From a virus, in IMG/VR virus record IMGVR_UViG_3300046673_000055, positions 1-21,673 of that record: a DNA stretch of 21,673 bases. One strand, written 5' to 3'. The position numbers and the translations under genes are program-made. Position 1 is the stretch's first letter. Each line of letters begins with the position of its first letter. A model generated the notes under the pieces. The model had not been told where the DNA came from and did not search any database. It saw only the letters and a list, made by a program, of their open reading frames with translations. This document shows positions 1-21,363 of the stretch, in pieces.

Positions 1-1317
1 AAGCTCAAAGGCCGTAGTAGCTTTGTGTCCGTTTGCGTAGGTGTTGTTATTCCGCACAATAGCACCGTGCTCAATCACAAGACTGTACGCGAGAGTCAGA
101 TCGTCGCTCAGCGTGCAGTTGTTTCCTTCGATAACGTCTCCACTTCCATATACGTAGCCATTGGCAAGCACGTTGTATCCGCCGCCCGTGATACAATTCG
201 CGTAGGTTCCGCCCGATGTGATGTTATTCCAACCCACATGACCGCCAATCGGCGCAATTCCCGGCGCGGCTGGCCAGTATTGCAAGCCCGTGGTCTCCGC
301 TCCGTTGCCGCTTACGGTGATGGTGTTGTGGTCCAGATTAAACGCTGTCATTGTTCCCCTCATCAAAAGCGGAGTAGAGCCAGCTGTGACCGTATTCCAA
401 GTGAAGTGGAATCCCACTGTATACAAAGGTTGGATGCAGAAAGGAGTATACGTTGGCCAGCTATTACAGGTGATTGTGTTTCCGGTCAGAGTTACGTTGC
501 TGCTTAGTGTCGCGCCTGTCACATCGCCGATCACAAATAATTGGCCGGTATAACCATTCTGAATGAGCGTGCAGCCGCTCATTGTGAACCCATCGGCAGT
601 CACGGCGGGAACTACAATCATTCCGTTAGCAAGATTCGCGCCCAGAGTTAGTGTCGCTCCGGGGTTGCATTGCAAAGTCACGTTGGCCGCGTTGACTGTA
701 GCGGTACTGGTCAGCGTCTCTGAATAGTTCGATTGCAAGATAATTTTCGTATTGGCCGGTGCTGCGGCCAGCTTCGACGCAAGCGTGCCTGCTGATGCGC
801 TCCCACTCAGATACACTTCCGGCGCGAGCAGGTTATTGACCGCCCCGTTCGCCGTGATCGCGCCCGTACCTCCCTGTCCAGTAGAAACGACATTCTCCCC
901 ACCGAGGGTCGTGCCATTACCCGGATAGTAGGCAATCTGATTTATGGTTCCGGAACTCACCAGCCCGGAACCTCCCGAACAAATGTTGGGCATATTTTGA
1001 AAACCCTGCCCAGGGGACGAAACGGATTCTGAAACGCAGTAGTTCAAAGGCAGGTAATAGCTGTAGTTTCCGCTCGCATCCGCTGTCACAAGAGGAGGGT
1101 TGATCGGGGCAGTCAAAAGAGGGTCGGAATAAATCGTTGCCGCGAGGCCCGTGGCTGTGCTAGTTACACTCACTTTTGCATACGGAACTACCTGAGCCGA
1201 GACTCCTTGGGGGGCCCGAGCAAGAACTTGATTCAGGCGATGATAGCCGGTAGTGGCCTGAGAAAGTCCGGATAATGGACAAAAAATCAAGGCCGCGAGC
1301 AACAAAAACTTTTTCAT
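1..1317 (-). CDS. Tail spike/fibre with signal peptide, 3' end beyond window
   Basis: The frame is open from the ATG at 1317 to the window edge (439 codons, no stop), so the C-terminus is missing. Residues 1-20 look like a Sec signal peptide: MKK, a hydrophobic stretch, then LSQ. Residues 22-102 match the N-terminal part of the next gene upstream (1326-1841), for example TTGYHR, RAP, IYSDP and YYLPLNY. From about residue 150 the sequence has short repeating runs rich in N, T, G and V (such as LTGNTITC and VGWNNITSGG), typical of right-handed parallel beta-helix spikes and lyases. The role is inferred as receptor binding or polysaccharide degradation; no catalytic site can be assigned. A second ATG lies at 1320, but the SD AAGAGGA fits the 1317 start better. 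The repeated 15-bp motif sits inside the signal-peptide codons. Confidence 0.75.
   Translation of the reverse strand, partial: MKKFLLLAALIFCPLSGLSQATTGYHRLNQVLARAPQGVSAQVVPYAKVSVTSTATGLAATIYSDPLLTAPINPPLVTADASGNYSYYLPLNYCVSESVSSPGQGFQNMPNICSGGSGLVSSGTINQIAYYPGNGTTLGGENVVSTGQGGTGAITANGAVNNLLAPEVYLSGSASAGTLASKLAAAPANTKIILQSNYSETLTSTATVNAANVTLQCNPGATLTLGANLANGMIVVPAVTADGFTMSGCTLIQNGYTGQLFVIGDVTGATLSSNVTLTGNTITCNSWPTYTPFCIQPLYTVGFHFTWNTVTAGSTPLLMRGTMTAFNLDHNTITVSGNGAETTGLQYWPAAPGIAPIGGHVGWNNITSGGTYANCITGGGYNVLANGYVYGSGDVIEGNNCTLSDDLTLAYSLVIEHGAIVRNNNTYANGHKATTAFEL
1266..1280 (-). promoter_or_regulatory. Repeated 15-bp motif, site 1, within signal-peptide codons
   Basis: GTCCATTATCCGGAC on the minus strand, read as codons C-P-L-S-G in another frame than site 12. 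Lies 37-52 bases after the start codon. Confidence 0.85.
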
Positions 1318-1325
1318 CATTCCTC

Positions 1326-3841: not shown

Positions 3842-3877
3842 CTAGTCAAATCCTGACTGACGGTGGGTTGCGTCCAT
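3842..3877 (-). CDS. Possible 11-residue relay peptide inside motif junction
   Basis: The 15-bp motif at 3872-3886 contains TAATG: the TAA ends the 231-residue upstream gene and the overlapping ATG opens MDATHRQSGFD. Its stop (TAG) overlaps the AGGAG SD of the next gene. This geometry would allow terminating ribosomes to move from gene to gene. It may be fortuitous, since the motif always contains ATGGAC in this orientation. Confidence 0.25.
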   Translation of the reverse strand: MDATHRQSGFD

Positions 3878-3886
3878 TATCTGGAC
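3872..3886 (+). promoter_or_regulatory. Repeated 15-bp motif, site 2
   Basis: GTCCATTATCTGGAC. It spans the stop codon of the 231-residue gene (TAA 3879-3877) and lies about 40 bases before the next main start (3832). Confidence 0.8.
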
Positions 3887-4572
3887 TTGTTGCGGCGGGT
3901 TTGAAGAGCCTTAAACCAACTGTTGTGTAGGTCACCGAGAGGGCGGCCAAACACCTCGTTGATTTTCTCTTCGGGGATGATGTCGTTTTCGATAAACCGG
4001 ATAAGCACAGACCGCCATCCGATTTTGGATACGCGGAGCATGATGTCTCGGGAGTCAAACTCATACTCTGAGTATTCGGGTAGATCGTCTCCGTAGAACT
4101 TGGGGAGAGTTACATATCCGATATATTTGAAGTCTCGGTCGTTCCAGTCATGGCGTAACCAACCGGACGTGGCATATAGAGCAACATCCCCCGCGATTCC
4201 ACCTTCTGTGATAAACAAACCAGGGTAGGCTTTGTGGAGCTTCGTTAAAAACTCTGAAGTAGACATCGACTTTCCACGCCTTGGTTTGCGGAGTTCGGCC
4301 TGATCCGGGTGTCTTTGTCTCTTCGTGGCCTCGGAACTGTAGTTCATTTCTCGAAGGCGGGAGGTGTGTTCTGCAATACTTAGACGAGGGGAACTTTTGC
4401 ACAACGGACACATTGGATCATAGCCGGACTTATATGAGGAGTTTCGGTCGAAGAACTTGTATTCGAGCAATCTCCTGCAACCGACACATTCCATTCCCCG
4501 AAGGTTACTGTCCGCCCCCGCCTCGTAGTTAATGACATCGAAATCGGATTCGATCAGACTTACTGCGCTCAT
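3877..4572 (-). CDS. Unknown protein with N-terminal zinc-ribbon-type cysteines
   Basis: 231 residues from the ATG at 4572. That start overlaps the previous stop as ATGA, which favours it over a codon 12 bases upstream. Two pairs, CVGC and CPLC, separated by about 25 residues with an intervening aromatic stretch, look like the zinc finger that opens many phage endonuclease-like and recombination-like proteins. The centre is basic (KRQRHPDQAELRKPRRGK). The C-terminal 120 residues (ITEGGIAGDVALYATSGW, IGYVTLPKFYGDD, a helical end) match no catalytic family I recognise. A nucleic-acid role is possible from the zinc site and basic linker, but not shown. Confidence 0.65.
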   Translation of the reverse strand: MSAVSLIESDFDVINYEAGADSNLRGMECVGCRRLLEYKFFDRNSSYKSGYDPMCPLCKSSPRLSIAEHTSRLREMNYSSEATKRQRHPDQAELRKPRRGKSMSTSEFLTKLHKAYPGLFITEGGIAGDVALYATSGWLRHDWNDRDFKYIGYVTLPKFYGDDLPEYSEYEFDSRDIMLRVSKIGWRSVLIRFIENDIIPEEKINEVFGRPLGDLHNSWFKALQTRRNKSR

Positions 4573-4829
4573 GCGGGCACCCAAATCTTAGGCTGCTCCG
4601 GCTTGTTCGGATCGGGGAAAGCCTCGTTCAGTTTGACTTCTATAGCTTTGACCGTCGCCTCCGCGAGTTGATTGTCTTCCGCGTTGTCTGCGTTGACTGC
4701 GATGTCTCGCTCAAGAGTAATCGAGCCGTCTTCGCCTTTTACGACCAAGGCTAGGACGTGGCCAATGACCCCGTCATAGTATTCGGTGTGGTCTATATCC
4801 GACGTTCCTACACCTATCGTGATTGCCAT
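4569..4829 (-). CDS. Unknown 86-residue protein
   Basis: Begins MAITIGVGTSDIDHTEYYDG and continues with alternating beta-like stretches (GHVLALVVKG, SITLERDIAV) and an acidic helix (AEDNQLAEATVKAIEVKL), ending in a Pro/Lys tail. No family recognised. An SD (GAGG) precedes the ATG. Its stop overlaps the following start (ATGA), so translation is probably coupled. The 15-bp motif lies 13 bases upstream of the start codon. Confidence 0.65.
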   Translation of the reverse strand: MAITIGVGTSDIDHTEYYDGVIGHVLALVVKGEDGSITLERDIAVNADNAEDNQLAEATVKAIEVKLNEAFPDPNKPEQPKIWVPA

Positions 4830-4981
4830 TTTACCTCACTTAGTCCATTATTCGGACAAACTTCTTGTCTTGGAAATGCTTTTGACGCACCACACGCACA
4901 CCACAGAATAATGACCAGATACGGGGGCCCAGCCGTTTGCCAGCGGACCTCCGAATCGTAAGTGTGAGTGTGTTTTGTCAC
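4814..4981 (-). CDS. Probable small protein, GTG start
   Basis: A 55-residue frame starting MTKHTHTYDSEVRWQ (GTG at 4981, seven bases after the stop of the upstream virion gene), with a hydrophobic VIILWCACGASKAFPR segment carrying a CxC. It fills an otherwise empty gap and overlaps the next gene by 16 bases. The composition (His and Cys spaced as H-T-H ... C-A-C-G) resembles small phage proteins that may bind a metal. The SD is weak (GGAG about 15 bases upstream), so translation may be coupled. The 15-bp motif lies inside this frame (codons for C-P-N-N-G-L). Confidence 0.45.
   Translation of the reverse strand: MTKHTHTYDSEVRWQTAGPPYLVIILWCACGASKAFPRQEVCPNNGLSEVKWQSR
4843..4857 (+). promoter_or_regulatory. 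Repeated 15-bp motif, site 3
   Basis: GTCCATTATTCGGAC, 13 bases upstream of the start at 4829. Confidence 0.8.
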
Positions 4982-4987
4982 GGACCG

Positions 4988-5989
4988 TTATAATCTCTCC
5001 AAGCAAAAATCTCGGAGTGTGATTGTGTTTGAGGAGGAGGCGAACCCGAAGGTTACAGCCCCCGCGAAAGCTAGGTCAGAAATGGCCAAGGCGGACGTAA
5101 CATTGGTGACTACGGTCGGGCCTGTGAAGAACTTCGACGTTCCAAACCCAATGACCGATGTATACGAACCGGACAGGACTTGAGACGTAATGTCCCACTG
5201 CAACGTGGCCTCGATCTCAAAGTTGAAAGCACCGCCCGTCGGGCCGATAACCCTCGTCGCTCCGGTTGTTGCCAGGGCGCTGTTTAGTGTAGTCGTTCCC
5301 TGATACAGCTTGATGGTCACATAGGTTGTTGCGGCAGTCGGCAGGGCCCCACTTGGACTAATGGACCCAAGGTCTGTGTAGGTGGTTACCGCCCCCACGG
5401 TGGCAATCTTTTGCTCGGCTCCCGTGGTGCGCCCGTAGATCACATAACCAGTCGCGCCCGCTACAGCGCCCCAGGTCACGGTCATTGTGTGCGTTCCGGT
5501 CACAGTGGCGCTCGTTGCTTGAGAAGTTTCCGCAGAGGCGAGGGAGGTTCCACCCTGAGCGTTGATGGCAGCTATCCGATAGTAATAAGTAGTGCCGTCA
5601 GCAAGACTTCCACCAGTGTCCGCCTGGGTAAACGTACTGTTTACCGGAGTAGCCAATTGTGTGGCAGCGTTGCCTATTCCAGAAATCCGGACACGGAACG
5701 GACGACCATCCCACGAGTATTGAGTGAAGGGGGCGTTTCCTTCTCCGGACGGAAGACCGTAGTCTTGTCCGGAACGACGAAGCACGGCGACGTTGGCATT
5801 GGTGTCTATGGGAGCCCGGGCTCCCGAACCGTAAGCCCCGCGAGGAATGGGGAGAAAGAAGTTGCCGGTTCCCGTGTCAGTGCTGATAGTCAGTTGGGTC
5901 TCCGCCGCTGTTGAGACGGTTTGGGCCTGAAACTGATTTCGTGCCGTGCCGCTCCGAGAAAACCCGACGATAGAATTTGCGTTTGCCAT
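4988..5989 (-). CDS. Virion protein paralogue with inserted FN3-like domain
   Basis: 333 residues. It is a paralogue of the gene just upstream (6024-6737): both have MAN-N start, SGTA+NQF, YGLPSGE, SWDGRPFRVRI, KLYQG/NLYQG, FTGPTVVTNV and a similar end (TLRDFCLERL versus SIREFVVDKL). Compared with that paralogue, residues about 112-219 are extra: GTTYYYRIAAINAQGGTS and VTWGAVAGATGYVIYGRT are the strands of a fibronectin type III-like fold. I infer a surface-displayed capsid or tail protein whose FN3 domain faces outward to bind cells or glycans. The SD is AAAGGAT, 5 bases before the ATG. Confidence 0.75.
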   Translation of the reverse strand: MANANSIVGFSRSGTARNQFQAQTVSTAAETQLTISTDTGTGNFFLPIPRGAYGSGARAPIDTNANVAVLRRSGQDYGLPSGEGNAPFTQYSWDGRPFRVRISGIGNAATQLATPVNSTFTQADTGGSLADGTTYYYRIAAINAQGGTSLASAETSQATSATVTGTHTMTVTWGAVAGATGYVIYGRTTGAEQKIATVGAVTTYTDLGSISPSGALPTAATTYVTIKLYQGTTTLNSALATTGATRVIGPTGGAFNFEIEATLQWDITSQVLSGSYTSVIGFGTSKFFTGPTVVTNVTSALAISDLAFAGAVTFGFASSSNTITLRDFCLERL

Positions 5990-6793: not shown

Positions 6794-6808
6794 GTCCATT
6801 ATCCGGAC
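6794..6808 (+). promoter_or_regulatory. Repeated 15-bp motif, site 4 (longest stem)
   Basis: GTCCATTATCCGGAC. Flanking bases extend the inverted repeat to 7 bp each side (GTTGTCC and GGACAAC around a 7-base centre, 6791-6811). Lies in the gap before the start at 6737. Confidence 0.85.
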
Positions 6809-6815
6809 AACTAGC

Positions 6816-7460
6816 TTAGGTGATTGTTTCGGCGTGGGTCTTCGAAGTCGTCAGAGGTTTGAAGATGGGCTCTGCGTCGAGCTTGGACCCGTTGAAGAAA
6901 ATTGCAATAGCTCCACCAGGCGACACAAGGAGATTTTTATGCCCACCCTTTAAGAGTGCGCCTACTTCATGTACAATCGAAGAGTGGGCTACTAAAAGAG
7001 GAGGAACTCCGGTTTTGCTAAACATCTCTACCGCTTGTTGCAGACAGGGGCCAATTCTTTGTTTGAATTCATTGAGGGATTCGCCCCCGGGAATCTGAGT
7101 ATCCGGAGACTCCAAATATGTCTGAAGGTTAGCTTCTGCCTCGGGAGTGCGCTTCTGTCCTGAGAACTCTCCGACATCTAGTGCTCGAAGACTCTCGACT
7201 GGGTGAACGGACGCCCCGTGAGCCTTGCCCACGATCTCGGCGGTCTTCGTCGCTCGTTGTTTGTCTGAGCAGAATATATGAGACAGTTCGACGTGCTCGA
7301 AGAGCTTGGCCAGTTCCCCCGCTTCTTTTATCCCTACTTTGTCCAAAGGAGGGTTGGCGTTCCCCCGGAACGAGTTAGAAGCATTCAAAGCGGTCTGACC
7401 GTGTCGTGCGACATAAACACACACGGTTCCGGAGCTAGACGGGTTCGGGTCGAGGGGCAT
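6816..7460 (-). CDS. Histidine phosphatase superfamily protein (phosphoglycerate mutase-like)
   Basis: 214 residues. The family signature is intact: RHGQT with R19 and nucleophile H20 near the N-terminus, SDKQRATKTAEIV with R69, an acidic donor at E98 in LDVGEFSG, GGESLNEFKQRI, and a second catalytic histidine H159 in LLVAHSS. Such enzymes remove or transfer phosphate through a phosphohistidine; substrates range from sugar phosphates to nucleotides and proteins and cannot be read from the sequence. With all catalytic residues kept, activity is likely. It overlaps the previous gene by 26 bases and has its own SD (AAGGAAG). Finding it among virion genes is unusual; it is perhaps an auxiliary metabolic or anti-defence gene. 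Confidence 0.85.
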   Translation of the reverse strand: MPLDPNPSSSGTVCVYVARHGQTALNASNSFRGNANPPLDKVGIKEAGELAKLFEHVELSHIFCSDKQRATKTAEIVGKAHGASVHPVESLRALDVGEFSGQKRTPEAEANLQTYLESPDTQIPGGESLNEFKQRIGPCLQQAVEMFSKTGVPPLLVAHSSIVHEVGALLKGGHKNLLVSPGGAIAIFFNGSKLDAEPIFKPLTTSKTHAETIT

Positions 7461-7998: not shown

Positions 7999-8013
7999 GT
8001 CCATTATCTGGAC
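7999..8013 (+). promoter_or_regulatory. Repeated 15-bp motif, site 5
   Basis: GTCCATTATCTGGAC, extended by A/T to a 5-bp stem. It lies just beyond the hairpins, about 220 bases before the next main start. Confidence 0.8.
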
Positions 8014-8325: not shown

Positions 8326-8477
8326 TTTGTTCCTTCCGGGACCATTTCGTCCAGGATTAAATTGCATCCGCCTTCTCGACAGATTTTGAAAAGAATTTGT
8401 TGGTGTGGGGGAAGTTCTTCCAAAATCTCGTCAAATTCTTTTTCAGAAGCAGTTTGTAGCAATGGTGTTAGGTCCAT
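8301..8477 (-). CDS. Small acidic protein, 58 residues
   Basis: Starts MDLTPLLQTASEKEFDEIL, a helical acidic stretch, then QQILFKICREGGCNL with two cysteines. No family recognised. Its ATG overlaps the previous stop (TAATG), and it overlaps the KTSC gene by 25 bases in another frame. The start sits in TAATGGAC, the same 8 bases found in the repeated motif. Confidence 0.5.
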   Translation of the reverse strand: MDLTPLLQTASEKEFDEILEELPPHQQILFKICREGGCNLILDEMVPEGTKWPTSPSV

Positions 8478-8599
8478 TATTTCTCTGCTTTCTTGTCAAC
8501 TTTTCGGACAACAATACTCCCATCTGAGTTCCGCAGAGCAATTCCTTTGTGCTGGGGAAGGGGACGGAAGTCGGGAGGAAAGAGGACGTAATAGTCCAT
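8477..8599 (-). CDS. Small protein, 40 residues
   Basis: MDYYVLFPPDFRPLPQHKG followed by IALRNSDGSIVVRKVDKKAEK, a plausible small beta protein with a charged tail. An AAGGAG SD lies 9 bases before the ATG. The ATG is inside the 15-bp motif and overlaps the previous stop (TAATG); the stop overlaps the next start (TAATG). No family recognised. Confidence 0.5.
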   Translation of the reverse strand: MDYYVLFPPDFRPLPQHKGIALRNSDGSIVVRKVDKKAEK

Positions 8600-8608
8600 T
8601 ATCCGGAC
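8594..8608 (+). promoter_or_regulatory. Repeated 15-bp motif, site 6, forming a stop/start junction
   Basis: GTCCATTATCCGGAC. Read on the minus strand it supplies the TAA of one small gene and the overlapping ATG of the next. Confidence 0.8.
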
Positions 8609-10611: not shown

Positions 10612-11760
10612 TTAGTTAGAGCGCCGAGCTTTCGACATCTCCCGAGAAACACCACCAAGTAATTGCTTGATCTGTGCGTCGGACATGTTTTCTAGCTCCT
10701 CGGCTGAGGGCGCTTTGGGGGCTTCCGGGGGTGCGACGGGTGTTACGTCGGTGTTCCGGAGTCCCATAGCCGCTCTCGGGCGCGTCACCACTTGAACAAT
10801 CCGTTCGTTGGGGCGCGGCGCAGGCAGTGCCGGTTCGTTGGGTTGAACCGCTACCGGCGGAGGGGTTTCCACTTGTGGTGGAGCTTGTTTGGGAAGTCTG
10901 GGGGCCTGAACCATTAAATCGTCGCTGCTCAGGTCTTCAAAAGCTTCCTCAATATTTTCGACAGTCCATTGTCCGTTCGTGTGTAATTCGAACATATCGG
11001 CATCGGACTTGCCGAGCTTAAATTTGCTTAGCCACTGGACTAGCCGGTTGAAATTCTTGGCTTCTCTGTCCGGATAGTAGTCCGGATTCTTCCGCAGAAA
11101 GTCTTGACAAACTAAATCGGTTTGAATCTGCGCTTCGGCCAGGGACCCTCTTTGTGCGCGGGAAAGAACGTCGTCCATTGTTACGCCGCGAGTTTTCAGA
11201 AGCAAGAAGTCTTGCGCCGCTTCCGGGTCGGATTCCAGCAAGGTCTTGTACTCAAAAATCTCGTCGGCAGTCAGTCTCCTCTTGGACGTAGCTTGCTGAG
11301 ACGGGGCGAGAACCGGGGCCGCTGGAGTAGAACTGAACTTCAGCTTTGCATTCTGCTCTCGAATTTTCTTTGTGGCGTTCGCCTGCGCCTTCAAGATATT
11401 GAGCACCAATTCGTTCTTGGTCTTTCCCCAGTAAATCTGAGGGCTGCCTGTGGGCCCCGCAACAGAGCCTTTCCACTGCCCCTTGTCTTTCTCCAAGGAG
11501 AGCAAGGTGCCGTCCTCCAGTTCCAGAGTTTCTGGAACATCGGGCTCTTGGGGTGGCGGGGGCGGAACAACCGGCTCTTCCTCCAAGGGCTCCGGCTGCG
11601 GGTAGTTTGTAACTATATTCGGAACAAGGAGCGGGTGTTCTTCGAGAAGGTCGGGGTCGATTTCGTCCAGACGTTGCGATCTTAGATCAACGTTAGTGAA
11701 GGGGTCAACGCTTCCATCGGGGTTTAATGCCCAGGGATCAAGGGTTAATTGCTGTGCCAT
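10612..11760 (-). CDS. Scaffolding-like protein upstream of capsid
   Basis: 382 residues: acidic and Pro-rich N-terminal third (a PPPPP run near 70), helical middle with RLTADEIFEYKTLLESDPEA and a long stretch to LVCQDFLRKNPDYYPD, a second Pro-rich linker (about 285-325), and a short basic C-terminal helix (AQIKQLLGGVSREMSKARR). A disordered acidic body ending in a basic helix, immediately before the capsid gene, is the usual look and position of phage scaffolds, where the basic end contacts the shell. No protease domain is seen. Identification is by position and composition, not sequence family. The leader repeats a 13-mer also found before the gene at 18207. Confidence 0.65.
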   Translation of the reverse strand: MAQQLTLDPWALNPDGSVDPFTNVDLRSQRLDEIDPDLLEEHPLLVPNIVTNYPQPEPLEEEPVVPPPPPQEPDVPETLELEDGTLLSLEKDKGQWKGSVAGPTGSPQIYWGKTKNELVLNILKAQANATKKIREQNAKLKFSSTPAAPVLAPSQQATSKRRLTADEIFEYKTLLESDPEAAQDFLLLKTRGVTMDDVLSRAQRGSLAEAQIQTDLVCQDFLRKNPDYYPDREAKNFNRLVQWLSKFKLGKSDADMFELHTNGQWTVENIEEAFEDLSSDDLMVQAPRLPKQAPPQVETPPPVAVQPNEPALPAPRPNERIVQVVTRPRAAMGLRNTDVTPVAPPEAPKAPSAEELENMSDAQIKQLLGGVSREMSKARRSN

Positions 11761-11800: not shown

Positions 11801-11815
11801 GTCCATTATCCGGAC
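11801..11815 (+). promoter_or_regulatory. Repeated 15-bp motif, site 7
   Basis: GTCCATTATCCGGAC, 41 bases before the start at 11760 and 3 bases after the stop of the upstream gene. Confidence 0.85.
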
Positions 11816-12043: not shown

Positions 12044-12453
12044 TACACTCCCCCTATCGCAGCTTTGACATCTGCCGCTTTATAGGCACCCTTCAACCAG
12101 AGAGTAACTTCCTCGGAAGGGTTCGCAGCAAACTCAATTGCCTTCTCTATGTCTTGCTGAAATTTAACGAACTGGTCGTCCAAAGCAGAGGCTGCGGCGT
12201 GGACAGTAGGAACTGTTGGGTCTCCCGGCGGAAGATCGACCAGGGTTTGAACCGCTTTGTCTCGGTAGTCCTGCAAGGTCTGTATTACCGTGTTCCAGCC
12301 GGGATGATTGACCACCGTCCGAAGTTCGCGGCCTTTGTTGTATAACTCCAACTCTCCTTCGATGTTGGAAAAGTCTGCGTCGGGTTCGGTTGGAAAGTCG
12401 CTGGTTACTGGACCGTAAGTTGCGTACCCGGAGAAAGGAATCTTAGGAGGCAT
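12043..12453 (-). CDS. Unknown helical protein between portal and scaffold
   Basis: 136 residues: an N-terminal Pro/acidic stretch, then helices (NHPGWNTVIQTLQDYRD, ASALDDQFVKFQQDIEKAIEFA) and a short end. The pattern of a P-G-W helix, a linker and a second long helix recurs in small phage proteins coded beside the portal; a role in head assembly is inferred from context only. GGGGGG is the SD. It overlaps the previous gene by 11 bases and ends in TAATG, overlapping the next start. Confidence 0.6.
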   Translation of the reverse strand: MPPKIPFSGYATYGPVTSDFPTEPDADFSNIEGELELYNKGRELRTVVNHPGWNTVIQTLQDYRDKAVQTLVDLPPGDPTVPTVHAAASALDDQFVKFQQDIEKAIEFAANPSEEVTLWLKGAYKAADVKAAIGGV

Positions 12454-12649
12454 ACAATCCCCCCAGGATGTGGTCGAGGTTAACTGTTCTCTTCGCTTGT
12501 GGAGGGGTGGCAGTTCTCATTTGTCCCCGGCCCGTTATGGAGTTGAGCAGCTTGTCCAACTCCTCGGGAGAAAGCCTGTCAAACTCGGTGGATGGAATTC
12601 CACCCGTGATTGCAGTTTGGAAGTTTGGTTGATACGGAGCGGTAGCCAT
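12443..12649 (-). CDS. Unknown 68-residue protein after portal
   Basis: Starts MATAPYQPNFQTAITGGIPS and carries a helix (LSPEELDKLLNSITGRG) and a short basic end. No family recognised. CAGGAG lies about 6 bases before the ATG. The 15-bp motif lies 12 bases before the start, with its GGAC end at the portal stop. Its reading frame overlaps the next gene by 11 bases. Confidence 0.6.
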   Translation of the reverse strand: MATAPYQPNFQTAITGGIPSTEFDRLSPEELDKLLNSITGRGQMRTATPPQAKRTVNLDHILGGLYAS

Positions 12650-12660
12650 TTATTCTCCTG

Positions 12661-12675
12661 GTCCATTACCCGGAC
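12661..12675 (+). promoter_or_regulatory. Repeated 15-bp motif, site 8
   Basis: GTCCATTACCCGGAC. It fills half of the 30-base gap between the portal stop (12680) and the next start (12649). Confidence 0.8.
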
Positions 12676-14834: not shown

Positions 14835-14849
14835 GTCCATTACCCGGAC
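14835..14849 (+). promoter_or_regulatory. Repeated 15-bp motif, site 9
   Basis: GTCCATTACCCGGAC in the 100-base gap before the portal gene, 4 bases after the previous stop. Confidence 0.8.
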
Positions 14850-15701: not shown

Positions 15702-17870
15702 CTATCCCCACATTCCAGCACCCAGGATATTGTTCATCCCCGAGGGAACTCCACTGGTTTCCGGTTCTGACGAGGATGAGAAGAAGTCAGTGGGCTCGGG
15801 CGTCGGACCGTCAATCGGAACCAAAGTTCCGTCTGCTGCATAGGTCCACCGGGTTGGGCCCGTTTGCTGAATAGGAACCATCTGGCCATCGTCTCCCAAG
15901 TAATACCCACCCCGGGAGTTAGGCCGATAATTTTCGTCGAACACCTCGCCCCAGCCTTGCCGGTCTATGCTGAAGAACATATCCGTGTTATTTTCGACTA
16001 TGGCTTGGGTGGCCCGGGGGGCGTATCGAAGCTGATAAGCCAGGCAGTCTGGTATATCCTCGTGGTGATGGCTTGTCTGGCACTTTTCGAACTCTGTATA
16101 AAGAATCTCTATTCGAAGGGGGTCCATACAAGCATTGAGGAAGAACCACTGTCCGTTTACCATCCACGGATACAACTGCCCGATTCGAAGTTTCTTAGCG
16201 TCGTTCTGGTTGTCTACCGGAATCCATTCAATGTGGGCACACAATTCCATGATATAGGGGTCACCTGTTTTGGCGGCCTCCGTTAGAATTGTATATTCCA
16301 TGTAGCGGACACCCGGGGAGTCCTCAATTCCGATGATGAAAGGTCGAGTTTCTTGCGCCAGACGGATAACAGCTTGGGGTCCCGTTAGATTGTTGAAACG
16401 ATCCCTCACAACTTTGAGTGTGCTTCCGACCGTCTTCTTTCTTCGGGTCTTGGTTCCGTTCGGCATTATTATTTCAACTGGTTTACCGTTTGGTCCGATT
16501 TCGTCAGCTTCGCTCCACATAACAGCGGAGCCCGTGGTGTAGTCCAATCCCTTCTTCTGCTTGCCCCCGTTAAAGTCCCACATATTTGACACGGGGCCGC
16601 TGCGGGGAAGCATTTGATAGGGGATAGTACACCGAAGGAGGAGGGGCCTATCGAACGTCACGCTTCCGGCGGATCGGGGGTTCTGATTTCTCTGTCCTTC
16701 GAAAGACTTCTCATCCTTGGCGAGATCGTTCATCAGCCAGGAGAAGGACATGATGTGGGGAAGAAGCAGAATACAACCCGCTTCGCCCGCTTCTTGGTAG
16801 GTTACTTTTCGTCCCTCAGACTGAAGACGTTCTACAATCTCGGGTTTGATCGTGATCGCTCGGCCCACCAAGATGTTCATATTGGTGGTTTTGTTGTGGA
16901 CAAAGAACCAGCCGGGTCCCTCTCGACGTTCCACTTCTCCGAAGTTCTCGTTCTTCTCTAGGAGTTCGCCGTAATGGTCTTCGTCCGCATACCGAGTGCC
17001 TATGTAATCTACATAATATCCTCCGGGAATAATCAACTTCTCGGCGAGGAACAATTTATGGGAAATGCTGGAACACTGCTCGGATGACTCTGTGTTCACG
17101 TCCGAGACGGCGTCATCCATTTTAATAAGTTCGTAGTGCCAACCGGACTTGGTTTTGCCTACGGACGATCCGACGACGGTCGGCTCCTTGCGCCTGATCT
17201 TCTTTGCTTTCCACACCGGGCAGGTAAAGACTTCCATCTTTTCCCGCTGACCCTTGACCTTAACCCCGTTTTCATCTTCTTCGGAGGCAACATCAACGAA
17301 GCAGAATTCGGGGAAGAAGAGTTCCATCAACGTGGGCTCGTCTTCGCTGCGTTGAAAATGGCCCTTAACCTCGTCCACGAAACCTTTGGACAGACTGACT
17401 TCCGCCGTCAGATAAAGAATACGAATGGAAGGGAAATTGAGAATCCATTGGACAGTGTCTACGTGGTCGATTGTGCTCTTAAACCCAGACCTGGGCCAGA
17501 GGAGGAGCCTAGTCTTGACTGTGGACTGCTGGTTAAGGGGTTTGGATTTGTCTTTCTTGACGAACAGGTCGCAGACTGTTTGATAGTATTCCTCGGTGAT
17601 GAGGTTTTCCGAAAGGGGTTTAGTTCCTTTTTCGCTGTGCGCGTTCGTTTCCCAGGTAAAATACCGAGCTAACCACAGAAGGTCTGCCTCACTTCTACGC
17701 CTGACTTCTCTCCCCAATTTGGAATTTGGAATGTGATCCGAGCCCAACTTGGCCATGTTGGCCAGGTCCTGTCTCCCGTCTTGGAGGCAGGAGTAGAGGG
17801 CGTCGTTGGGTATTAGTTCGTAGCCGCCGTATTGGTCGTAAAGTGCGTCTACCTGCTCGGAGATCGACAT
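15702..17870 (-). CDS. terL: Terminase large subunit
   Basis: 722 residues, long for the family. ATPase: a Walker A variant WPRSGFKST (125-133, with K131), Walker B ELIKMDD (247-253), plus a typical GTRYADEDHYG stretch and a QRNQNPRS motif (393-400). Nuclease (RNase H-like) candidates: D443 in GLDYTTGSAV, the E/D pair in IGIEDSPG (516-517), and D605/D608 in HHHEDIPDCLAY. It cuts and pumps DNA into the prohead. The last 90 residues are Pro/Gly/Ser-rich. No strong SD precedes the ATG, which sits 4 bases after the upstream stop, so coupling is likely. No small subunit is recognisable nearby. Confidence 0.9.
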   Translation of the reverse strand: MSISEQVDALYDQYGGYELIPNDALYSCLQDGRQDLANMAKLGSDHIPNSKLGREVRRRSEADLLWLARYFTWETNAHSEKGTKPLSENLITEEYYQTVCDLFVKKDKSKPLNQQSTVKTRLLLWPRSGFKSTIDHVDTVQWILNFPSIRILYLTAEVSLSKGFVDEVKGHFQRSEDEPTLMELFFPEFCFVDVASEEDENGVKVKGQREKMEVFTCPVWKAKKIRRKEPTVVGSSVGKTKSGWHYELIKMDDAVSDVNTESSEQCSSISHKLFLAEKLIIPGGYYVDYIGTRYADEDHYGELLEKNENFGEVERREGPGWFFVHNKTTNMNILVGRAITIKPEIVERLQSEGRKVTYQEAGEAGCILLLPHIMSFSWLMNDLAKDEKSFEGQRNQNPRSAGSVTFDRPLLLRCTIPYQMLPRSGPVSNMWDFNGGKQKKGLDYTTGSAVMWSEADEIGPNGKPVEIIMPNGTKTRRKKTVGSTLKVVRDRFNNLTGPQAVIRLAQETRPFIIGIEDSPGVRYMEYTILTEAAKTGDPYIMELCAHIEWIPVDNQNDAKKLRIGQLYPWMVNGQWFFLNACMDPLRIEILYTEFEKCQTSHHHEDIPDCLAYQLRYAPRATQAIVENNTDMFFSIDRQGWGEVFDENYRPNSRGGYYLGDDGQMVPIQQTGPTRWTYAADGTLVPIDGPTPEPTDFFSSSSEPETSGVPSGMNNILGAGMWG

Positions 17871-17874
17871 AAGT

Positions 17875-18207
17875 CTATTTGTCCAGCTTCTGCGGAGGAA
17901 TCCTATTTAGTGACCATCTCCAGATAATTTCGTGTTGCCTTCCGTGGTCATACATTTCGTGAGCCATGCGGACCGGAACTCCGTCTCCGCAAGGCCATTC
18001 AGATTCTTCTGCTAGAGACGTTTGAAAAATATCTTCTATTTCTCCCCCGGCGGACAAACAACCGAGGCATAGGTAGTAGTAATGCTCACCGTCGCCTTTC
18101 ACCAGTCGAAATCTAAGGGGAACTTCGGACTCTTCTTCGCTCTCCTCTACATACGGAGGCGTCCAAGAACTTGGCTTGAGCAGAGTAACCTCAAAAATTG
18201 TTTGCAT
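17875..18207 (-). CDS. Unknown 110-residue protein
   Basis: MQTIFEVTLLKPSSW, an acidic stretch (VEESEEESE), then beta-rich segments (LRFRLVKGD, YYYLCLGCLSAG with a CxxC) and a C-terminal WRWSLNRIP. No family recognised. GCAGGAG lies 5-6 bases before the ATG, with the CGGAGGATTTCCG hairpin leader upstream. It directly precedes the terminase, the place where a small terminase subunit often lies, but no helix-turn-helix is visible, so I do not make that call. Confidence 0.6.
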   Translation of the reverse strand: MQTIFEVTLLKPSSWTPPYVEESEEESEVPLRFRLVKGDGEHYYYLCLGCLSAGGEIEDIFQTSLAEESEWPCGDGVPVRMAHEMYDHGRQHEIIWRWSLNRIPPQKLDK

Positions 18208-18245: not shown

Positions 18246-18260
18246 GTCCGGATAATGGAC
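18246..18260 (-). promoter_or_regulatory. Repeated 15-bp motif, site 10, inverted
   Basis: GTCCATTATCCGGAC on the minus strand, the opposite orientation to sites 2-9. It touches the stop codon of the DUF6496-type gene and lies 39 bases before the next start. Confidence 0.85.
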
Positions 18261-19760: not shown

Positions 19761-20117
19761 TTACATTCCTTGCTGCGGCTGTGGAGGACCACCAGGGCCC
19801 GGACCGGCTGCTGCTACTGCGGGGCCAGCTTGCTGAGACGGGTCGGGAGGTGCCGCTTGGGGGGCCGCCTGATCGTCCGTATTGGCCGCTATGTGCTGAA
19901 GGAGGGACGCCTGGTCCGGCATCACGTGCTCTTCGGGGTCGGTAGCGACTCCGCTCTCGTCGGGGAGTTCGTGGTGGGTAACAATGTGCCCGCCGCTCTT
20001 TCCTTTGCGGATACGAATTTCATGCGGGTGACTCTTGCTCTTTGAATGAGAGGAGGACTTTTTCTTGCCGCCCCCACTCATCGAGCTTTTCGCCCTGGAT
20101 GCCTTTTCCTCGGCCAT
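19761..20117 (-). CDS. Basic, disordered small protein
   Basis: 118 residues. The N-terminal 40 are Lys/Ser/His-rich (GGGKKKSSSHSKSKSH), then HEIRIRKGKSGGHIVTHHEL, a compact segment with a His-rich look, followed by an Ala/Pro/Gln-rich tail ending PPQPQQGM. Probably disordered outside the middle. No clear SD, only GAG near the start. No family recognised. Confidence 0.55.
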   Translation of the reverse strand: MAEEKASRAKSSMSGGGKKKSSSHSKSKSHPHEIRIRKGKSGGHIVTHHELPDESGVATDPEEHVMPDQASLLQHIAANTDDQAAPQAAPPDPSQQAGPAVAAAGPGPGGPPQPQQGM

Positions 20118-20133
20118 GTTAAATCTCGATTCT

Positions 20134-20149
20134 GTCCAAGTTAATGGAC
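20134..20149 (-). promoter_or_regulatory. Repeated motif, site 11, 16-base variant
   Basis: GTCCATTAACTTGGAC on the minus strand: same ends and same ATTA start, but one base longer in the centre. Lies between two gene boundaries, 16 bases before the start at 20117. Confidence 0.65.
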
Positions 20150-20313: not shown

Positions 20314-21363
20314 CTATTTCAGCCGAATCAAAGAGAACTGCCAAGTGTAAACGCCCCCACCAGCAAGAGTGCCTGATGTGTACGCGGAAATTAGCGTACT
20401 GGCATCTGCGCTGATTTGTTTGCAGTTAGAGGCTCCACTGGACCCATCCATGCCAATATCATACGTTCCGGTCGCAGTCGTTGCCGCTCCCATTGAGGCC
20501 GAGTGCCAATGGCCGAGCCAATACGCATAGCCGTAAGGGTTGAGCGTTCCGGTTCCTGCGGTCGTCATGGTCGCATCGCCACACATCTCATATTGGCCAG
20601 TCAGCCCGCTCGGAGTCGCATAAAGCGGTACGTAGCCTCCATTTGCTCCTGTGATCACGGTCAACCCGCTAATAAGCCCCGCTGCCACTGTGCAGGGATA
20701 TTGAAGACACCCCGCCGGAAGCCCCGTAGTCTGTGGAACCCAGCTTGCATAGAAGGGCGGAACCCCGCTGGCCGCTCCGCCAACATCGTTGTAACTGGTC
20801 GTCTGGCAGGACGCAAGTAATCCCTGAGAGTACACGGTCCCAAGCCGCACCATCACATATACATCAAAGCAGTTTGCGTTTGTTGGCAGCGTTGGAAAAG
20901 TGACGATGTTATAGTTCGTGCCATTGACCGTGGCTGGTCCTGTCGTGGTCAGAGCTAAAGGGGAGAGTGCCGTGTAGATCGTCCCCGCCGTATTTCGCGC
21001 TACTACCCCATAGACGTAGCTCGCAGTGCCAGGAGTGCCGCCCTGCGTGATTGCGGGGCCGGTCGCAAGGTTGGCAATGGCCATGCTCGGAGCCGACAAA
21101 GTTAGTTGTGAGCCCGCCGTCAGCCCCGCTGCTGTGCCGGTCGTATTATTCGCTATCGTCCCAGCCGGGGATACGCTCCAAGTTCCATTATCACAGGAGT
21201 AAATAACACCCGTAGAGATTACAACTTCAATAGGGGGAGAAGCAGGACAAGCTCCCGAGGGGGCGGATGGAACATAGATAACTTGATTGTTCACCGGCAA
21301 TTGAGCGGAAGCTGTCCAGATAATGGACAATCCGAGAACGGCAAGGGAAAGGAGTTTCTTCAT
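20314..21363 (-). CDS. Fibre/adhesin-like virion protein with signal peptide
   Basis: 349 residues. Residues 1-20 form a clear Sec signal peptide (MKKLLSLAVLGLSIIWTASA, cut after SAQ or nearby). The mature chain is Thr/Gly/Ala/Ser-rich with beta repeats: an FN3-like block (about 105-200, YVYGVVARNTAGTIYTA then a CFDVYVMVRLG region) and a C-terminal part with GHWHSASMG and a GTYDIGMDGSSG stretch. Six or more Cys in the mature chain suit an exported protein. It abuts the preceding gene (TAA then ATG). The 15-bp motif lies inside its signal-peptide codons. I infer a surface adhesin or fibre; no enzymatic motif. Confidence 0.7.
   Translation of the reverse strand: MKKLLSLAVLGLSIIWTASAQLPVNNQVIYVPSAPSGACPASPPIEVVISTGVIYSCDNGTWSVSPAGTIANNTTGTAAGLTAGSQLTLSAPSMAIANLATGPAITQGGTPGTASYVYGVVARNTAGTIYTALSPLALTTTGPATVNGTNYNIVTFPTLPTNANCFDVYVMVRLGTVYSQGLLASCQTTSYNDVGGAASGVPPFYASWVPQTTGLPAGCLQYPCTVAAGLISGLTVITGANGGYVPLYATPSGLTGQYEMCGDATMTTAGTGTLNPYGYAYWLGHWHSASMGAATTATGTYDIGMDGSSGASNCKQISADASTLISAYTSGTLAGGGVYTWQFSLIRLK
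21314..21328 (-). promoter_or_regulatory. Repeated 15-bp motif, site 12, within signal-peptide codons
   Basis: GTCCATTATCTGGAC on the minus strand, read as codons S-I-I-W-T. Lies 35-50 bases after the start codon. Confidence 0.8.

Follow-up and report, generated by a model that had tools for sequence, protein, structure and literature searches.

The 21.7-kb window, by which we mean the whole stretch of viral DNA analyzed here (IMG/VR record IMGVR_UViG_3300046673_000055, 21,673 nucleotides), contains two genes whose products carry signal peptides, as judged by eye only. Neither protein had a match in PHROGs or Pfam, so the "fibre" label given to both in a first-pass annotation is a guess.

1..1320, minus strand: signal-peptide gene with the site at 1266, extending past the window edge
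20314..21363, minus strand: signal-peptide gene with the site at 21314; its N-terminal 65 aa are 83% identical in phage G008, where the motif is retained

Both genes contain a copy of a short motif that recurs throughout the window. We counted 11 copies of GTCCATTANYYGGAC at no more than one mismatch to GTCCATTATCCGGAC, together with one 16-nt form. Allowing up to three mismatches, GTCCATTATCCGGAC matched 13 times compared to 0.49 expected, and no shuffled sequence reached 13. Similarly, GTCC-N7-GGAC occurred 12 times compared to 0.34 expected.

1266..1280, minus strand: GTCCATTATCCGGAC, inside signal-peptide codons (CPLSG); same place kept in G008, G011, G014 and G020
3872..3886, plus strand: GTCCATTATCTGGAC, at the 3' end of gene 3877..4584
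4843..4857, plus strand: GTCCATTATTCGGAC, intergenic; start codon of gene 4569..4829 lies 13 nt downstream, and the upstream gene ends at 4988
6794..6808, plus strand: GTCCATTATCCGGAC, intergenic
7999..8013, plus strand: GTCCATTATCTGGAC, intergenic
8594..8608, plus strand: GTCCATTATCCGGAC, intergenic; overlaps a weak small ORF call
11801..11815, plus strand: GTCCATTATCCGGAC, intergenic, 40 nt ahead of the start of gene 10612..11760
12661..12675, plus strand: GTCCATTACCCGGAC, intergenic, ahead of gene 12443..12649
14835..14849, plus strand: GTCCATTACCCGGAC, intergenic, ahead of the portal gene
18246..18260, minus strand: GTCCATTATCCGGAC, upstream of gene 17875..18207; one base also belongs to the stop codon of a gene that ends at 18260
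20134..20149, minus strand: GTCCATTAACTTGGAC, the 16-nt form, upstream of gene 19761..20117
21314..21328, minus strand: GTCCATTATCTGGAC, inside signal-peptide codons (SIIWT)

What looks like a pulled-apart site lies at 8472-8511 (GTCCATTAT, then TTCGGAC about 25 nt on) and was left out of the counts. At 6816-7460 (minus strand), a histidine phosphatase superfamily protein is encoded amid structural genes.

The site at 1266 stands 37 to 40 nt past the start codon of its gene (ATGATG start) and is read as TGT CCA TTA TCC GGA (C-P-L-S-G). The one at 21314 stands 35 nt past the start codon and is read in a different frame, as TTG TCC ATT ATC TGG ACA (L-S-I-I-W-T). This confirms the first-pass observation of a motif kept inside signal-peptide codons in two genes and read in a different frame in each. 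The further suggestion that the copy at 4843 may be coding (C-P-N-N-G) did not hold, as this site is intergenic and no gene is called in that frame.

The motif array belongs to one clade of phages

Relatives of the window phage were recovered from IMG/VR by their terminase (55 to 100% identity). An exact motif scan was positive in 86 stretches, some of them with single, chance-like hits. The long motif-rich contigs harbored 25 to 75 copies each in 68 to 110 kb, one contig having 74 near-matching copies in 97 kb, and the reversed control pattern gave no match in any phage record counted. These contigs represent one clade of soil phages of about 100 kb with many orthologues in common.

Two more distant phages point to the hosts. 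Tunturi_3, a phage isolate, infects Tunturiibacter (PMC11924767) and compares with the clade at 25% for the terminase and 31% for the portal, and a portal relative is found in a Ca. Sulfotelmatobacter assembly (portal 51%, MCP 78%). Because of this, the hosts of the clade are likely Acidobacteriota. The array was absent from both Tunturi_3 and the Ca. Sulfotelmatobacter contig, and a deeper origin of the motif was rejected on these grounds. Furthermore, 247 Acidobacteriota genomes yielded only 13 motif matches in total, and controls performed alike. Given this lack of enrichment, a motif shared with the host, such as an uptake sequence or a Chi-like element, was rejected, and any protein binding the motif would be encoded by the phage. 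Literature searches retrieved neither the exact motif sequence nor the combination of stoperator and Acidobacteriota.

Several other features were observed in these phages. In G003 (contig L117, 2853-8760), near-identical to the window, and in G004 (contig L113, 5138-11396), about 28 tRNA genes form an array, and the motif lies in some of the gaps between these genes. An alternative genetic code had been considered for these gene-poor stretches and was rejected in view of the tRNA arrays. The array on L113 includes a permuted tmRNA (10922-11108, minus strand; RF04321, 94 bits; tag AVPFELPMAA according to ARAGORN), and the same phage contig has a match to a type-P5 twister ribozyme (16973-17030, plus strand; RF02684, 42 bits). 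In G008, the major capsid gene, whole in the window, is split into parts of 58 and 166 aa (contig L111, 342-2084, minus strand; G008 80342-82084). The insert holds a 295-aa ORF present in eight phages and looks intron-like; it had no match in Rfam or NCBIfam.

Anatomy, placement and spacing of the sites

Pooling 232 distinct sites gave the logo YWGTCCATT(A)NYYGGACWR, in which conserved information stops 2 bp outside the arms with no wider flank. The loop measured 7 nt in 268 of the 327 GTCC..GGAC pairs with loops of 4 to 10. The two arms, 11 bp apart from center to center, face the same side of the helix and flank an asymmetric center (ATTANYY).

We placed 346 distinct clade sites relative to genes called with a simple in-house script: 173 lay between co-directional genes and 144 (about 40%) within genes. 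Intergenic sites peaked 10 to 15 nt ahead of start codons, where the short gap leaves room. Stop codons were overlapped by 62 sites, 36 of which supply the stop. The integrase gene of G008 (contig L107, 11765-12877, plus strand) has three copies, two inside and one at the stop, an above-average density. Since sites also stand between tRNA genes, the element is independent of translation.

The whole phage genome has roughly one site per 0.9 to 2.6 kb, with sites also in 9-kb genes and in the tRNA array. The spacing is more even than random: the coefficient of variation of inter-site distances was 0.48 to 0.80 in seven of eight contigs compared to 0.94 to 0.98 under the null, the effect being individually weak in G018 and G020 (p 0.06 to 0.09), and the eighth contig (G015) showed none. 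Both orientations occur. Between co-directional genes, 119 sites were in the opposite and 54 in the same orientation, while the in-gene sites split 82 to 62. The bias is moderate (69:38 in strictly intergenic sites), and the sites are phylogenetically non-independent.

The bases of the motif are under selection

To compare synonymous change, we considered codons of unchanged amino acids in relatives at no more than 85% whole-protein identity. Such codons were identical in 74.7% of cases within the motif and in 41.5% ± 1.3% within random windows of the same genes (2000 resamplings, maximum 0.455). Third positions were identical at 0.67 to 1.00 for fixed motif positions and at 0.43 to 0.60 for degenerate ones, so that their conservation tracks the motif logo. 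The first-pass annotation had proposed to compare synonymous change in the motif codons among relatives, and across the clade the outcome (0.75 compared to 0.41 elsewhere) is in good agreement with its claim that bases rather than amino acids are conserved.

The signal-peptide genes illustrate the same point. In the family of gene 1..1320, the site is written as CPLSG, CPLFG or GPLFG in five lineages (the window, G008, G011, G014 and G020), whereas G015 and G022 write it in another frame, as LSIIWT, and have second copies, unchanged or with one base altered, shortly before the start codon. In G002 and G018, the site, again intact or one base off, is found just upstream of the start codon. In the G008 homologue of gene 20314..21363, the site is retained despite an Ile-to-Thr change within it. 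In both genes, the amino acids follow the DNA. What relatives conserve is the bases and not the residues, with the motif in one frame or the other or immediately ahead of the start codon. It had been stated beforehand that this reading would be contradicted by relatives that encode these proteins but lack the motif in the signal-peptide codons. They do exist, but in these the motif or a form one base off lies a few bases upstream.

The first-pass annotation also read the two copies as a separate control of the two fibre genes. Indeed, both are located 35 to 40 nt past the start codon. However, 144 of the 346 clade sites lie within genes of many kinds, and close homologues hold the site in the 5' leader, upstream of the start. 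Moreover, the orientation shared by the two copies is accounted for by the signal peptide, since the hydrophobic frames of only one orientation suit it. A control peculiar to these two genes is therefore highly improbable.

As to its statement that DNA or RNA is the target, the first half stands and the second does not. An mRNA hairpin, bound or cut by a protein, could form by pairing of GUCC with GGAC across a 7-nt loop, and many sites are immediately upstream of ribosome-binding sites. Covariation nevertheless largely refutes it: over the four arm pairs, 68 changes were one-sided and only 5 were Watson-Crick compensated, and pairing between the bases that flank the arms was rarer than in shuffled sequences. 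In addition, single-site folding was equivocal, with weak z-scores for three of six sites, both orientations are used, sites occur in the tRNA array, and one-sided forms are frequent in G016. We consider an RNA element almost certainly wrong.

The specificity of the array has switched in one lineage

G016 has a portal at 70% and shares most genes with the clade. Among its 47 core sites, 28 had a T/A outer pair (TTCC..GGAA) and 12 were one-sided. Of its 14 sites within genes that could be aligned, four share codon, frame and orientation with sites of other phages, including one in the signal-peptide family. Milder differences between per-phage consensus sequences were found elsewhere in the clade, at positions 8 to 11. 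A symmetric change throughout the genome is to be expected if the sites co-evolve with a dimeric protein.

Candidate proteins binding the array

The long motif-bearing contigs covering the respective loci encode a tyrosine recombinase, a sigma-like protein and p40414, the last of these being present in all contigs that cover its locus. p40414 (about 235 aa) is a neighbor of the phage sliding clamp, and its operon is of the replication type, where one would hardly expect a lysogeny repressor. Its divergence correlated with the distance between per-phage motif consensus sequences (r 0.76), second best among 58 families (median 0.32), compared to 0.59 for the clamp, 0.47 for the sigma-like protein and 0.37 for the terminase; the top family, p34718, was represented in six genomes only. 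These are raw correlations without phylogenetic correction, and since the recombinase was not among the families reported, they say nothing on it. p40414 had no convincing match in Pfam, PHROGs or NCBIfam, none to host ParB by hhalign and no significant one in PDB or BFVD by Foldseek, and profile searches recognized no ParA, ParB or CTPase domain. Its predicted structure is mediocre (pLDDT 66), and the top VIA match, Spo0J bound to parS (Z 6.7), is within the range for unrelated helical models. We tentatively regard p40414 as the best candidate for the protein that would bind the array.

The tyrosine recombinase offers another reading, in which the motif would be a set of core sites bound by the integrase, either for recombination or in the manner of an MrpR-like repressor. 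Arms around a 7-bp asymmetric spacer have the shape of a core site, long contigs covering the locus encode the enzyme, and MrpR of SPbeta, which has a tyrosine-recombinase fold, binds a dispersed 15-bp motif (PMC10516654). However, sequence conservation reaches no farther than 2 bp beyond the arms, and active recombination at about 70 sites in both orientations would scramble a genome in which site positions are conserved. The catalytic R, K, H-x-x-R and Y were kept in all four recombinases aligned, unlike in MrpR. Altogether, we find this reading unlikely.

What the array may be for

The sites very probably form an array of binding sites for a phage protein, and we favor, with some reserve, the joint reading that they serve a phage-encoded dimeric protein and act like dispersed operators. 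A sequence-specific protein of the phage would bind each double-stranded site as a dimer through the GTCC/GGAC arms, and selection keeps the sites in the same positions, whether at junctions of genes, inside them or among tRNA genes. We propose less confidently that, once bound, the array would act on transcription and on the state of the genome as a dispersed silencer or roadblock, and the copies in the signal-peptide codons would then simply be the sites covering those genes. That silencing or a transcription roadblock would be the main effect is a tentative proposal. Contrary to what a silencing model might predict, the integrase gene is not spared, and the even spacing and the in-gene sites suit an organization of the DNA at least as well.

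Indeed, the sites might instead be loading points for a phage protein whose task is to condense, segregate, protect or tag the phage DNA, control of transcription being secondary. The even genome-wide spacing, which includes the 9-kb genes and the tRNA array, the presence of both orientations and the lack of the motif in host genomes are consistent with such a role, as are the location of p40414 with the sliding clamp and sigma-like genes and its weak structural match to DNA-bound Spo0J. However, no ParA, ParB or CTPase domain was recognized in p40414, and the intergenic orientation bias of 69:38 would not be expected. We hold this architectural role to be rather doubtful. More speculative is its specific version, in which the evenly spaced array would mark phage DNA as self and p40414, as a protein of a new kind, possibly ParB/Noc-like, would organize or protect the replicating genome, specificity switching in concert.

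Few phage-wide arrays of binding sites are known, and the present one spans a whole clade of Acidobacteriota-type phages. Because the array sits in coding sequence under measurable selection and at least one lineage has switched its specificity, one can directly test how protein and DNA co-evolve and what dispersed operators are for. It is also a warning that a DNA site, and not the protein, can determine which codons a phage gene uses.

Comparison with known systems

Returning to the dispersed operators that we favor, the array can be likened to stoperators, to SPBRE and to KorB/Noc arrays. We filed it under none of them, because each has a defining feature that the array does not clearly share. 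In single sites, the geometry resembles that of 434/P22-type repressor operators, which have short arms about one helical turn apart around a 6- to 7-bp center. These phages have about six operators at two promoters, whereas the array described here is genome-wide.

RK2 has about a dozen KorB sites, and the present array is denser. KorB and Noc/ParB sites are palindromic, scattered over the replicon and global in action (PMC11790492, PMC8429893). The present sites are likewise palindromic and scattered, and the p40414 model may weakly resemble the fold of Spo0J on parS (Z 6.7), but no ParB-family domain or CTPase was found. SPBRE of the Bacillus phage SPbeta gave ten ChAP peaks in promoter regions, and its protein MrpR has lost the catalytic residues (PMC10516654). 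Both systems show a dispersed, phage-specific 15-bp motif and have a protein of tyrosine-recombinase fold as a candidate. However, our recombinase keeps R, K, HxxR and Y, and our sites extend beyond promoters (144 of 346 in genes).

Cluster A mycobacteriophages (L5, Bxb1, Trixie) have 20 to 30 asymmetric stoperators of 13 bp, mostly in one orientation with transcription, and the protein that binds them is known, a repressor acting as a monomer (PMC6550527, PMC9283540). As an immunity repressor, it stops elongation. A predominant single orientation relative to transcription was not found here (119/54 and 82/62). Also unlike stoperators, our sites have palindromic arms, lie in genes in about 40% of cases, reach 74 near-matching copies per contig and belong to phages of another host phylum. 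Nevertheless, in both systems a phage genome is dotted with tens of short sites. Furthermore, the stoperator consensus is phage specific and drifts in concert between relatives (PMC6550527), in agreement with the per-phage differences and the switch to TTCC..GGAA in G016 seen here.
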